A DNA stretch of 39,632 nucleotides from Candidatus Bathyarchaeota archaeon JdFR-07 (GTDB lineage: Archaea > Thermoproteota > Bathyarchaeia > Bathyarchaeales > Bathycorpusculaceae): contig MTLU01000006.1 in NCBI GenBank assembly GCA_002010975.1, positions 1 to 39,632 on the forward strand. Direction: 5' to 3'. Shown here one piece after another: positions 3,119 through 16,600 of this stretch (positions are counted from its first letter, which is position 1; every line of letters starts with the position of its first letter). The position numbers and the translations under genes were made by a program. The notes below the pieces were generated by a model. It searched no databases, had not been told where the DNA came from, and saw nothing but the letters and a program-made list of their open reading frames with translations.

Positions 3119-6100
3119 TTGAAAAAAGCATGGATTACTCTCGTTATCCTTTTAACACTTTCAACACCAAAGCACGTTGTTGTGTTTGGAGCAGATAGTC
3201 AGTTTACTATGTCTATGAAACAAACTAATCCTGCAACTTTATGGGTATATCTTCCAGACGGTCAACGTGTTGGTTCTAATCCTGATATATGGTTGCATAA
3301 AGGATGGGTTATGTATCAATCTGGAAATACTTGGACTTTTACTCTCAAGATAAAACAACAAAGTCACTGTCTATCATCCTTTGACACACACTTAATTATT
3401 GCACTCAACGATGAAGCTTACAACAATCTTGTCGAGCTGATTGTAGAAGGAGTTTCTATTCCTAGTCTCGCTTTCAAGTTCGGTCGACCACACCTTTATG
3501 GCATAAAATGGTGGCCTAATGATGTTTATCCAACATGGTTTAATGATACACTAGTCAATTTAGGAACAATACATCCAAAGCAAGTTAAAGAAATAGTTGT
3601 TAAAGTAACATTTTCCGACCCAACAAATGCTAGAATACACTTTGATGCCTACGGAAAAACTGTGCCTTTCGATCCTCCATGCCCAGGCTTTATAACAAGA
3701 AACCCCAATGGAAGAGACTCAACAGTTTTATGGAAGTACGTTCCCCAACCTCCCGAAGCAGAGTTCACATGGGTTCCGCCATATCCCTGCGTTAACCAGA
3801 CTGTAACCTTTAATGCTTCTGAGTCGTCTCCTATTGGTGGAGAGATAACATCTTATCGCTGGGATTTCGGCGACGGAAACATAACCATCACCAATCAAAC
3901 TATAATTACCCATATCTACTACGATATAGGAACATATGCTGTGACCCTAAATGTTACCGATAGTGAAGGATTGTGGGATACTGAAACAAAGAATATCACT
4001 GTAGTCACCACTCCAACAGTTTCTATTCAACCACCAGAAACTATATGGACATATGAAACTCATTCCATAGGAGAAAACTTAACCATAGATATATATGTAA
4101 ATAATGTTACCAACCTTTGGGCTTGGAAACTCGGTTTAACTTTTAACGCCAGTGTGTTGCAATGTCTAGAAGTTTCTGAAGGGTCTTTTCTCAAATCCGG
4201 AGGAAACACCACATGGACTCTTGGAGAAATAAATAACACTATTGGAATGATAAGTCCCTTCGAATGTTCACTCCTTGATGGAGGAACACCTGTTTCTGGA
4301 AGCGGAGTTCTAGCCTCTATACTCTTTACAACTATAAATTATGGAAACTCAAGTTTACATCCCATAAATGTCACTCTCTACGACCCTGACATAAACGTTA
4401 TCCCAGTCAACGTTTTTGATGGATATTTCGCGTTTATTCCCCCTCCCCCCTTCGGTCCTACTGCTTTCTTTAAATATAACCCCTTGGCCCCCTATGCCAA
4501 TCAACCGATAACCTTTAACGCATCGGAATCAGAACCCGGATGGACCGGGTGGGAACCTGCTCCCATAGTAAGCTATGAGTGGAATTTCGGCGACGGAAAC
4601 ATAACCCTCACCAATGAGCCTAGTATAGTACATACGTATTCAGCGATGGGCGTTTACAATGTGACACTTATTGTAACAGATAGTGAAGGGAGAATGGATT
4701 CCTATCTCAGAACATTAATTGTTGATGCCATCGCACCAAACGCTTACTTTGTGTGGGATCCATTTTATCCTATGTATGGTGAAACTGTAACCTTTAATGC
4801 TTCATTATCAACTCCCGACGGTGGAGAATTGATTTCCTATGAGTGGAATTTCGGCGACGGAAATACTGACAGTGGAGTTGTTGTAACTCATATATTCCAA
4901 GCTGGTGGAACATACAACGTTACATTAACAGTTATTGACAGTGAAGGTAAAAGCGACACCACTTGGAGACTGATCTCTGTATTAACTGAAATATATACAA
5001 CTCCGCCAGCATACGCTGCTTCATATCTTGGAGAAGAATTTAGCATAGAAATTAAAGTTGAAAATGTTACAAATCTCTATTCATTTGAATTTAAGCTTGG
5101 ATACAACACCACACTTCTTGACGTGACAGATATCGAGGAAGGCTTATTCCTTAGTAGTTTTGGAAACACAATAATCGAAAAGATGGAAATAAACGATACT
5201 GTTGGATACGTCTGGGTTTCCATAAGCCTTGAACCATCATCACCAGCAGCAAATGGAAGCGGAGTTTTAGCCTTCATAAGCTTTAACGTTACCTTCGCAA
5301 CTAAATGGCCAGAAAGTGTAAGTTGCGTACTTGACCTATATGATACTATACTAACAGATGTAAATGGATACGATATTTTGCATGAATCCCAAGACGGTCT
5401 TTACATATTCATTCCTCCAATAGTTCCTCCAACAGCATCGTTTAGTTACAGTCCAGAATATCCACTAGTAAATGAACCCATAACCTTTAATGCTTCTGAG
5501 TCGTCTCCTAATGGTGGAGAGATAACATCTTATCGCTGGGATTTCGGCGACGGAAACATAACAGAAGTTAACGTTTCAATAATTACCCATTCATATAGCC
5601 TTTCAGACTTCTATAATGTTACCTTAACCGTTTTCGACAATCAAGGACTAAATGATACAACATGGGCAATTGTAAAAGTCTATCTGAACCCCGAGTCTCC
5701 ATCTCCAGATTTCAACTGGATTCCCATAAGCCCAGTAAAAGGGGAAACTGTAACCTTTAATGCTTCAACTTCTCAACCAGGCTTTGATGGAACAAACACT
5801 TGCCCAATTGCATGGTACTACTGGGATTTCGGCGACGGAGCTACCCCGATAAACACCACTGACCTTGTAATAACACATACGTTCCTATCAGCTGGAACAT
5901 ATGATGTAAATCTAACGGTTTATGCACCACCAAGCTCTGAGACTCATCCAAGTTACTACCCATATGGAATGACAATTAAGCAGATCACTGTAACGGTTCA
6001 AGCATATACACTTACAATTACAACAACTAGTGGTGGCACAACCGACCCACCCCCTGGAAACTATACGTACGCCGAAGGCACCGTAGTTTCCGTTACAGCA

Positions 6101-11528: not shown

Positions 11529-11936
11529 ATGACAAAAATAATCCGCGTAGGAGTCACTTTTCCTCCAGATTTGCTTAAAGATTTCGACAAACTCATTAGA
11601 AAGATGAACTACCAAAATCGATCTAAAGCAGTGCAGGACGCTGTAAGAATGTTTATTTCAGAAAAAAAGTGGCTTCATGAAGAAGAGGGAACACAAGCAG
11701 GTGTCATAATGCTCCTTTATAATCATGAAGTCCGAGGCCTAGAAGATGCATTAACCCATGTACAGCACCATCACGCCAACATAATTTGTTCAACAATGCA
11801 CATTCACCTAAGCGAAAGAGACTGCCTAGAAGCCATAGCTGTAAGAGGAGACGCCTCAGAAGTTCGAAAGCTCGGTGACAAACTAGCGGCAAAAAGAGGA
11901 GTAAAAATCCTAAAAACAATGGTAGTCTCAGTTTAG
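11529..11936 (+). CDS. nikR: Nickel-responsive regulator NikR
   Basis: The protein has 135 residues from ATG 11529, preceded by GGGGAG; an ATG at 11517 would add four residues before the DNA-binding strand. The N-terminal ribbon-helix-helix (IIRVGVTFPPDLLKDFDKLI, then NRSKAVQDAVR) binds DNA. The C-terminal ACT-like domain carries the nickel ligands: VQHHHANII, the HIH pair and the Cys in RDCLEAIAV, matching His76, His87, His89 and Cys95 of E. coli NikR. It should repress the divergent transporter when nickel is plentiful. The palindrome between the two genes is the likely target. The 3' end overlaps the convergent nadA by four bases. Confidence 0.92.
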   Translation: MTKIIRVGVTFPPDLLKDFDKLIRKMNYQNRSKAVQDAVRMFISEKKWLHEEEGTQAGVIMLLYNHEVRGLEDALTHVQHHHANIICSTMHIHLSERDCLEAIAVRGDASEVRKLGDKLAAKRGVKILKTMVVSV

Positions 11937-12877
11937 CCTTTCCTGTTAATTACCTCAAACATTTTTTCCAAAGCCTTCCTAGTGTGTCGAGCCACATCCT
12001 CAGGAACACTTATCACATACTTCTCTTCCTTTAAAGCCAAATAAATCCTCTCTAACGTATTCAACTTCATATTAGGACAGACAGCCTCTTCGTACGCCAA
12101 TATAAACTGTTTTCCAGGATTCTCCTTCCTTAAACGATGCAGAAGCCCCTCTTCAGTAGCTACAATAAACTTTTCAGATGAGCTTTCCCGAGCAAAACGA
12201 CACATTTGAGAAGTACTACCAACAAAATCTGCTAACCGTCGCATTTCTGCTGTACATTCTGGATGAACCATAAGAACGGCATCAGGGTGTTGCATCTTAA
12301 GCATATCCGCATCCTCAGGCTGAAAGAGTAGATGAGTAGGGCAGAATCCCCATTCTGGAATTGGAAGAATAGTCTTTCCTGTCTTCTCCTGTACATACTC
12401 AGCCAAATTATGATCTGGACCAAAAAGGACGGTTTCTGCGTCTAAAGCCTCAATAATTTCAACAGCATTTGCTGATGTACAGCAAATGTCACAATATGCT
12501 TTAGCTGAAGCCAAAGTATTCACATACAAAACAACAGGAACAAGAGGATAAAGAGTCTTCCATTTTTTAATCTCATCAGCAGTTAGCATCTGCGCCATAG
12601 GACAACGAGCCCCAAGAGAAGGCAACAAAACCTTCTTATGTGGATTTAAAATTGCTGCAGTTTCAGCCATAAAATCTACCGCAGAAAAAACTATTATTTC
12701 TGCTTCTTTTTCACTCATCGCCTTTCTACTTAATTCTATGCTGTCTCCTACATAATCAGCTATGTCTTGAATTTCTGGCCTCTGATAATTATGAGCTAAC
12801 AAAATGGCTTTCTTTTCTTTTTTCAACTTAACTATATTATCAACTAAATCCAATAAAGCCCGCCCTTTTCGAACCAT
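11933..12877 (-). CDS. nadA: Quinolinate synthase NadA
   Basis: A 314-residue protein of normal NadA length. It condenses iminoaspartate with dihydroxyacetone phosphate to make quinolinate for NAD synthesis, using an oxygen-sensitive 4Fe-4S cluster. Marks: AILLAHNYQRPEIQDIADYVGDS, the first cluster Cys in LGARCPMAQML, VNTLASAKAYCDICCTSANAV, FGPDHNLAEYV, the second Cys in VHPECTAEM, and the third in EEAVCPNMKLNTLE. No nadB or nadC is nearby, so the rest of the pathway lies elsewhere. The gene stands alone on the minus strand and converges with nikR. A TATA box within a palindrome precedes it. Confidence 0.95.
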   Translation of the reverse strand: MVRKGRALLDLVDNIVKLKKEKKAILLAHNYQRPEIQDIADYVGDSIELSRKAMSEKEAEIIVFSAVDFMAETAAILNPHKKVLLPSLGARCPMAQMLTADEIKKWKTLYPLVPVVLYVNTLASAKAYCDICCTSANAVEIIEALDAETVLFGPDHNLAEYVQEKTGKTILPIPEWGFCPTHLLFQPEDADMLKMQHPDAVLMVHPECTAEMRRLADFVGSTSQMCRFARESSSEKFIVATEEGLLHRLRKENPGKQFILAYEEAVCPNMKLNTLERIYLALKEEKYVISVPEDVARHTRKALEKMFEVINRKG

Positions 12878-13338: not shown

Positions 13339-13383
13339 TGCGGCGGGCCGGATTTGAACCGGCGAACCCCTACGGGAGAGGAT

Positions 13384-13410
13384 GGCTCATAGGGAAACAG
13401 TTATACCGAT
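13384..13410 (-). other. tRNA-Leu anticodon-loop intron (27 nt, position 37/38)
   Basis: Lies between G37 and A38. The exon CTCA and intron TGAG form the four-pair helix between two three-base bulges, as the archaeal splicing endonuclease requires. Confidence 0.85.
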
Positions 13411-13424
13411 CTTGAGTCCTCCGC

Positions 13425-13441
13425 CTTTTTAGGCCCTGTGG
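13425..13441 (-). other. tRNA-Leu D-arm intron (17 nt, boundary ambiguous by one base)
   Basis: Excision restores a four-pair D stem GCCA/TGGC and a normal D loop AGCCAGGTCAA. A clear bulge-helix-bulge was not found for it, so splicing would rely on a relaxed motif. Confidence 0.7.
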
Positions 13442-13492
13442 CATTGACCTGGCTTGGCTACCGCCGCACAAAAGTAAACCTTAAGAATCTTT

Positions 13493-13501
13493 CTTATTAA
13501 T
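13493..13501 (-). promoter_or_regulatory. TATA box of tRNA-Leu
   Basis: TTAATAAG on the minus strand lies about 26-34 bases before the first tRNA base, the usual distance for archaeal tRNA promoters. Confidence 0.5.
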
Positions 13502-13624: not shown

Positions 13625-16600
13625 ATGTTGGAGACCATTTTTACGCTGGATGATCCAACAGCGGGAGGAAATTTAAAGTTTGAAAAATTTCCCATTAAAA
13701 AAATTCCACAATCTAAATTTAAACTTGAAAATTCTCGGGGACATATAGAAATGTTAGAAATAACACAGGAATATCGAAACTTATTATTAAAAGCATTTTT
13801 ACAAGAAAAAGGTTTAGTGCGTCAACATCTTGATTCTTACAACGAATTTATAGATCACGGCATCCAAGAAGTTATAGATGAAGTGGGCGAGATACCTATA
13901 GATGTCCCTGAAAGTCCTTATAAAGTCAAGCTTGGACAGATCTGGGTAATAGACCCTCAAACTAGAATAACTGGTCCCTACGTGACAGAAGTTGATGGCA
14001 CAAAACACGAGATCTATCCTATGGAAGCTAGACTTCGAAACTTAACTTATGCAGCACCTATAGCCCTTGAAATGACACCTATAATAGACGGTAGAGAACA
14101 AGACACAGAGCTAATATTTATCGGAAACATTCCAGTAATGTTAAAGTCGAAGCTATGCTTTTTGTCTCAGCTTTCCCGCGAGGAACTAATAGCGTGCGGC
14201 GAAGACCCTGATGATCCAGGCGGCTATTTTATAGTTAATGGATCAGAACGCGTTATAGTCGCAATGGAAGATTTAGCCCCGAACCGTATAATAGTGGATA
14301 TAGATGAAAAGGGAGCTACACCAGTATATCAAGCTAAACTTTTCTCCACAACTGTCGGTTTTAGGGCCAGAATAGAGTTAAAAATGAAATCCGAAGGTGC
14401 TCTTTATGTTTCTATGCCAGGAGTACCCACAGAAGTTCCCTTCATTATTGTTATGCGTGCCTTAGGCTTAGAGTCAGATAAGGAAATAGCTGAAGCGGTT
14501 TCTGTAGAAAAAGAAATTCAAAGTAAACTGGAACCTTCTTTTGAAAAAGCTATAGGTGTAGACACAGTTAAGGATGCTATCCTCTTTATTGGAAATCGTG
14601 TGGCTCACGGGCAAGTTGAAGAGTATAGAATCCAAAAAGCCGAAAGTGTTTTAGACAAAAACTTTTTGCCCCACATTGGTAGAACAAGCGAAAGCCGAAA
14701 AGAAAAAGCCATATTTTTAGGCGAAATGGCATGCAGAGTCATAGAGCTAAGCCTAGGCAGAAGAAAATCCGATGATAAAGATCATTTTAAAAATAAAAGA
14801 TTAAGACTGGCAGGTCCTCTTTTAGCAGACCTTTTCCGCGTAGCCTTCAGAAACCTTGTCCGAGACATCAAATATCAGCTTGAACGCATTGGAGTAAAAG
14901 GTCCTATAATAACTGTTTCGGCAGCAGTTCGTCCTGGAATAATAACCGAAAGATTTCAGCATGCCCTTGCCACTGGAAATTGGGGCAGAGGACGAGTTGG
15001 TGTAACCCAACTTCTAGACAGAACAAACTACATATCTACCTTTAGCCATCTACGTCGGCTACAATCACCGTTAAGTAGAAGTCAACCCAACTTTGAAGCT
15101 AGAGATTTACATGCAACCCATTGGGGAAGACTATGCCCAAACGAGACGCCAGAAGGCTCTAACTGCGGGCTTGTTAAAAACCTAGCGTTATCAGCCTCTA
15201 TTTCTGTTGGCGTAAATCCAGAAAAGATCAAGCAAATGCTTTATATTATGGGCGTAGTGCCAACATACGAAGCTAACGAAACACTGAAACTTTCTGGAGC
15301 AAAAGTTTTCGTGGATGGGAACATTATTGGATACTGCAACGATCCAGAAAAACTTACAAAAGAATTTAGAGAAAAACGAAGAACAGGTGAAATATCCACC
15401 GAAGCAAACATAGCTTACTTCTCCAGAATCCACGGCGAAAGAAACGAAGTATACGTGAACTGTGATGAAGGAAGAGTAAGGCGTCCCCTCATAATTGTAG
15501 ATAATGGTATTCCAAGACTTCAACAGGAACACATCGAAAAAATAGAATCCGGAGAATGGTCATGGGAAGACCTTGTTAAAAACGGCATAATTGAATATCT
15601 AGATGCAGAAGAAGAAGAAAACGCCTACGTAGCGCTAACTGACAAAGAAATAACATCTGAACATACACACCTAGAAATTGCAGCATATATGATACTTGGA
15701 ATATGCGCATCCACAATACCTTACGCAGAACATAATCAGTCACCTCGCAACTCTTACCAAGCAGCTATGGCTAAACAAGCTTTAGGAGTCTATGCCACAA
15801 ACTTTCACCAACGTGTAGATTCAAGGTCTCACATTCTGCACTACTCTCAGATACCTCTAGTTGAAACAGCATTAATGGACATGATGGGCTATAAACTACG
15901 GCCTTCTGGACAAAACTGCGTGGTTGCAGTGTTATCATTTGAAGGCTACAATATGGAGGACGCATTAATTTTCAACAAGGCTTCAATAGAAAGAGGATTA
16001 GGCCGCTCAACCTTCTACAGAATATATGAAGGGGAATGCCGCCAATATCTAGGCGGATTAAAAGATAAATTTACACTTCCCGAGCCAGGCATACGAGGAT
16101 ACAGAGGAGAACAATATTATAGACTTTTAGAACCAGACGGCATCATTAGCTTAGAAGCCAATGCTGCAGGAGGCGACGTGTTAGTAGGACGAATAAGCCC
16201 GCCAAGATTTCTTGAAGAATATAAAGAATTCGAGGTGAAAGGGCCCTCAATGAGGGATACTTCTGTAGATATGCGTCCCTCAGAAACAGGAGTTGTTGAC
16301 GCAATCTTCATTACGGAATCAGGCGAAGGAAGTAAATTGGTAAAAGTAAGAGTCCGAGCTCAACGAATTCCAGAATTAGGAGACAAATTTGCTTCCCGCC
16401 ACGGACAAAAAGGCGTAATAGGCCTAATAGTTCCGCAAGAAGACATGCCCTTCACAGAAGACGGCATAGTTCCAGATATAATTATAAACCCGCATGCAAT
16501 ACCCTCAAGAATGACCATCGGACAGTTTGTCGAATCTATAGCGGGAAAAGTGGCTTCCATTAGAGGGAAACTTGTTGACGGGACACCCTTTTCAAATGAA

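Follow-up and report, generated by a model that had tools for sequence, protein, structure and literature searches.

The question raised by this locus is whether an archaeal tRNA-Leu(CAA) gene that is interrupted twice, once in the anticodon loop and once in the D arm, is functional and is spliced at both places. The gene is located in a 39,632-nt stretch of DNA (the window, analysed at its full length) from a genome of Candidatus Bathyarchaeota (designated G000; 0.91 Mb, 43 contigs, 65 % completeness), and the named genomes with the same kind of gene are likewise Candidatus Bathyarchaeota. Comparison with relatives gives us high confidence that the gene is functional, that its precursor carries two introns of which the one in the D-loop has a relaxed splice motif, and that the D-loop of tRNAs in Bathyarchaeia, a little-studied group, recurrently hosts introns.

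Layout and detection of the tRNA-Leu(CAA) gene

The tRNA gene lies between an ORF at 11933-12877, which we take from the look of its sequence to encode a quinolinate synthase, and ORFs at 13625 and 17118, which by their look presumably encode the two large RNA polymerase subunits. The features of the gene are as follows.

13494..13500, minus strand: putative promoter element, a TATA-like TTAATAA that begins 33 nt upstream of the tRNA, with surrounding GGAAACAATTAATAAGAAAGA also present in many relatives
13339..13467, minus strand: tRNA-Leu(CAA) gene, 129-nt precursor (RF00005, 37.7 bits; orthologues)
13444..13467, minus strand: exon 1, acceptor 5' strand and D arm up to GGUCAA; the junction slides by up to 2 A (sequence, orthologue comparison)
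13446..13450, minus strand: exon strand of the putative splice helix, AGGUC
13427..13443, minus strand: D-loop intron, 17 nt, UGCCACAGGGCCUAAAA, with A-slippage equivalents 13428-13444 and 13429-13445 (without counterpart in orthologues; same-site introns in 21 other genomes)
13431..13435, minus strand: intron strand of the putative splice helix, GGCCU, leaving a 3' bulge of 5-6 nt (relaxed motif)
13411..13426, minus strand: exon 2, remaining D arm and 5' anticodon arm, with the anticodon CAA at 13412-13414
13384..13410, minus strand: canonical 37/38 intron, 27 nt, central helix CUCA/UGAG, bulges AG|A and CC|A (about 40 relatives have an intron at this position)
13339..13383, minus strand: exon 3, 3' anticodon strand, variable arm, T arm, acceptor 3' strand and discriminator A; CCA is not encoded

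With the introns in brackets, the parts are arranged on the minus strand (13339-13467) as GCGGCGG-UA-GCC-AAGCCAGGUCAA-[UGCCACAGGGCCUAAAA]-A-GGC-G-GAGGA-CUCAAG-[AUCGGUAUAACUGUUUCCCUAUGAGCC]-A-UCCUC-variable arm-T arm-CCGCCGC-A. The Rfam tRNA model RF00005 matched these positions above its gathering score of 29 in both short-stretch and genome-wide searches. Neither ARAGORN at default settings nor a whole-window Rfam scan at the gathering threshold reported the tRNA, presumably owing to its two inserts; in practice, this gene is missed by such scans. ARAGORN with no intron allowed found nothing in the precursor, or after removal of either insert singly, and with introns allowed it gave wrong readings unless the D insert had been taken out; with both inserts stripped it reported tRNA-Leu(caa), with a mature length of 85 nt. 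A clean tRNA was obtained only after removal of both inserts, which bears out the preliminary description of a tRNA-Leu(CAA) with two introns, one of them in the D arm. A match to the Plastid-ycf2 5'UTR model on the opposite strand (16.6 bits against a gathering score of 65.7) was attributed to chance.

The anticodon intron is inserted after position 37 and has the 4-bp central helix CUCA/UGAG and the 3-nt bulges of a bulge-helix-bulge. It had been called textbook, which is slightly generous because the inner intronic helix is weak. The 3' part of this intron, CCCCUA in many family members (CCCUA at 13384-13410), is complementary to UAGGGG of the variable arm.

Boundary, distribution and splice motif of the D-loop insert

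Genomes of the same family have an identical D arm minus the insert, GCCAAGCCAGGTC-AAA-GGCG, and in orthologues from this order of Candidatus Bathyarchaeia the tRNA body is unchanged except that the 17 bases are absent. Retention of these bases in relatives had been named beforehand as the observation that would speak against an intron; the relatives compared are without them. The D-loop insert is missing in orthologues and its removal restores the tRNA, as is required of a non-canonical intron. A22 is present in all of the insert-free GCC-type orthologues compared (..GGTCAAAGGCG), and therefore the insert reads UGCCACAGGGCCUAAAA (13443-13427), or is this 17-nt sequence slid by one or two A. 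The size and site given earlier hold, with the exact boundary off by one base: the cut proposed there, said to restore a D stem GCCA/UGGC exactly, gives U22. A length of 17 nt, described as near the lower limit, is ordinary for this site, where inserts of 12-20 nt occur.

The distribution of the insert was surveyed by BLAST of the gene over 61 genomes and by pattern scans, which covered 163 genomes at the level of the order and 257 at that of the class. Three states of tRNA-Leu(CAA) were found in relatives, namely the anticodon intron only (about 40 genomes), the D-loop intron alone (21 genomes from families f1, f6 and f7) and neither (e.g. G014, G004 and G058). Both introns together, searched for as an exact two-gap pattern, were present only in G000 (1 of 257 genomes). 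All of these counts are lower bounds because the patterns were exact; they missed the D-loop intron of G003 and the second intron of G125, which came to light only when the loci themselves were read. The idea that a two-intron tRNA-Leu(CAA) is unique to G000 was narrowed accordingly, since the gene of G125 (C5:9500-9850) combines two introns in another way, one at 37/38 and one in the 5' anticodon stem. A pattern match in an alphaproteobacterium (L089) was rejected as chance.

The 21 other genomes with an insert at this site contribute 20 distinct sequences, in which the intron bases pair with exon GGUC at four of four positions (14 introns) or three of four (6 introns). The pairing tetramer ends two bases before the 3' junction, an offset that always returns the mature GGUCAA|AGGC (AUGC in G003). 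The exon strand is invariant and the intron strand is GACC, GGCC, GGCU, GACU or GACA/GGCA, with four pairs kept in all but the last type; across families f1, f6 and f7 the intron sequences differ and the helix agrees. The summed pairs numbered 74 against a shuffled mean of 32.7 (sd 4.3), and none of 20,000 shuffles did as well, a count that overstates the certainty because some introns are clearly related and are not independent events. A complementary strand at the exact bulge-helix-bulge offset in all 20 inserts makes it very probable that the D-loop site is a true splice site.

The copy in G000 departs from this arrangement. Its AGGUC/GGCCU helix is set back from the 3' junction by three more bases, so that the 3' bulge measures 5-6 nt against 3 nt in 20 of 20 relatives on the same reading. 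If the orthologous D arm is restored, the intron lacks the strict bulge-helix-bulge of 4 bp with two 3-nt bulges and falls in the relaxed class only; the earlier remark that it shows no clear canonical motif was right for the strict form, and the relaxed helix is nonetheless recognisable. A 5-bp match like this one is contained in 3 % of insert shuffles (~0.03), so the motif in G000 taken alone is weak evidence and the argument is carried by the site and the relatives; the relaxed helix is convincing because 20 distinct same-site inserts carry a canonical or near-canonical version of it.

It is conceivable, and in our judgement unlikely, that the cut instead obeys the strict geometry, with an intron of 14-16 nt and one to three extra A kept in the mature D-loop. 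An AGGU/GCCU helix of 4 bp with 3-nt bulges would give 16 nt and one extra A, and GGUC/GGCC would give 14 nt and three. The length of the D-loop after GGUC is, however, fixed in all tRNA-Leu(CAA) orthologues and tRNA-Leu paralogues compared, and an enlarged loop would be unique among them. It is very unlikely that the insert arose through faulty assembly or sequencing of this metagenome-assembled genome: a local error is possible from the sequence alone because the assembly is incomplete and in 43 contigs, and the exact insert is found in one genome and is absent from its sister G013, but it sits precisely at the intron site of 21 other genomes from three families with a matching splice helix, which a random error would hardly do. 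An expanded mature D arm is extremely improbable, given the orthologues without the insert, the separation of the D-stem strands by it, and the unrelated inserts of 12-20 nt at this site in relatives, which have little in common beyond the splice helix. A reading of the gene as a pseudogene in decay, with the insert as debris, is scarcely credible, since, despite the two interruptions and a second copy that could be missing from the incomplete genome, the acceptor, anticodon, variable and T stems are intact and near-identical to those of relatives, the promoter-like box is conserved, and no other tRNA-Leu(CAA) was seen in the genome (65 % complete).

Splicing endonuclease and proposed splicing pathway

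The preferred reading, a 17-nt D-loop intron with a relaxed motif, was considered together with the splicing enzymes of the host. G000 has two endonuclease genes of 185 aa each, as do most relatives. The catalytic subunit has its best matches to the enzymes of PDB 2cv8 and 3p1z and contains the loop YGKPLGIAKPK, which is specific to Crenarchaea; its K39 aligns to residue 44 in the 3p1z chain, which the literature knows as A. pernix K44. The second subunit matches 1a79 best and has T in place of the catalytic His. Two-subunit and epsilon2 endonucleases are reported to be capable of removing relaxed-motif introns efficiently and to require the loop lysine for cleavage (PMC6379350, a review), and crenarchaeal substrates include bulges of lengths other than three (PMC4307357; PMC7714728). 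The relaxed motif and a two-subunit endonuclease with the Crenarchaea-specific loop lysine are thus found in one genome, as the relaxed class requires.

A precursor with a tRNA part of 129 nt would carry both introns, and the two-subunit endonuclease would cut out the 27-nt 37/38 intron and the 17-nt D-loop intron, the latter nominally between positions 20a and 22. At the D-loop, exon GGUC and the preceding A would pair with intron GGCCU, giving a near-canonical 5' bulge and an enlarged 3' bulge, a relaxed bulge-helix-bulge of the sort that this type of endonuclease is reported to accept. Ligation of the exons would yield the 85-nt tRNA, with a spliced D arm reading GGUCAAAGGC. We infer cleavage, ligation, the exact cut sites and the direction of change from the sequences.

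Genes of this general kind are known. D-arm introns of tRNA-Glu(UUC) and tRNA-Glu(CUC) of Sulfolobus tokodaii have been mapped with recombinant endonuclease (PMC4307357), and the G000 intron resembles them in being short, in having a junction made ambiguous by redundancy, and in its probable cleavage by a two-subunit endonuclease of the crenarchaeal kind; it differs in tRNA and lineage, and the S. tokodaii genes have a single intron. Multiple-intron tRNA genes are reported from Thermoproteales (Sugahara 2008, as cited in PMC8450103) and from Caldiarchaeum subterraneum, for which gain was inferred between close relatives (PMC3293823). The G000 gene shares with these the presence of two introns, at least one of them non-canonical, and is set apart by its host and by the combination of a D-loop and a 37/38 intron in tRNA-Leu(CAA). 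The preliminary description placed two-intron tRNAs chiefly in Thermoproteales, and such genes are indeed cited there; the host in this case belongs to Candidatus Bathyarchaeia. Searches of an open-access library turned up no description of tRNA introns in Bathyarchaeia. The multi-intron and D-loop-intron tRNA genes would hence be extended to Bathyarchaeia, with a recurrent D-loop site, a near-exclusive intron pattern in tRNA-Leu(CAA), and a relaxed splice site in an intron that is probably young.

Origin of the intron and other D-loop introns

A tree was built from one protein, the catalytic endonuclease subunit, of 39 genomes; it has few well-supported branches, and the tRNA-Leu(CAA) state is missing for 14 rows. 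G013 is the sister of G000 with a support of 100/99, and their catalytic subunits are 91 % identical. The tRNA-Leu(CAA) of G013, which likewise has the polymerase-like gene nearby, carries the anticodon intron but lacks the D-loop insert. The absence of the D-loop intron from the genome closest to G000 in this tree suggests a recent gain in the G000 lineage after its split from G013, the simplest reading of one protein and one sister.

Two other tRNA genes of G000 have D-loop introns, which makes that of tRNA-Leu(CAA) one of a set. The tRNA-Leu(UAA) gene (C18:3911-4028), which was not listed by the genome-wide RF00005 search, has a 33-nt intron with the complete motif GUCU/AGAU and the inner helix UAGGC/GCCUA; this intron occurs across the order with varying inner helices, and the site is occupied in about 19 relatives. 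The tRNA-Arg(UCU) gene (C4:30653-30742) has a 15-nt intron with the full motif UUGG/CCAG, also found in many relatives; the gene is intron-less in G020, G045 and G017, and the exon junction is the same in intron-less relatives. These comparisons show the D-loop to be a site where introns recur in Bathyarchaeia, namely in tRNA-Leu(CAA), tRNA-Leu(UAA) and tRNA-Arg(UCU). The intron studied here lies in the same region as the others and likewise has one splice-helix strand in the exon, whereas the others have 3-nt bulges; unlike G000, the other tRNA-Leu(CAA) genes with a D-loop intron have no anticodon intron.

The tRNA-Leu(CAA) D-loop intron resembles the one in tRNA-Leu(UAA) of G000, sharing 12 of 15 bases (UGCCA.A..GCCUAA) with the 3' part of the latter. 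This was the best match among 22 introns, with a shuffle p of ~0.002 uncorrected that is weak after correction, the likeness having been noticed before testing; none of the other introns compared stands out. Intron transposition has been described for Thermoproteales (Fujishima 2010, as cited in PMC4090602), and the resemblance would fit such an event, suggestively only. It is possible, and we propose it tentatively, that the D-loop of Bathyarchaeia tRNAs acts as a hot spot where introns are gained repeatedly, in tRNA-Leu(CAA) normally to the exclusion of the anticodon intron, and that the G000 intron was freshly copied from its own tRNA-Leu(UAA), with a young two-intron state and a splice site not yet optimised. 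With the roughly 20 same-site introns and the presence/absence pair of G000 and G013, both the gain of tRNA introns and the degree of motif relaxation that the two-subunit endonuclease tolerates could be put to a direct test.

Several further observations were made on tRNA genes of this group. The loop of the tRNA-Leu(UAA) intron contains a G(C/U)CAGA-like element, mostly GCCAGA, complementary to UCUGGC in the variable arm of the same tRNA; the summed match was unreached in 2,000 shuffles, and shared ancestry of the introns is an alternative explanation. In G000, tRNA-Val(UAC) (C11:5217-5317) has an insert of ~26 nt close to position 25/26 with the helices UUAG/CUAA and CUUGC/GCAAG, and tRNA-Arg(CCU) (C18, ~4630-4770) seems to have an interruption between its acceptor and D stems, with two occurrences of GGGCGGG upstream.
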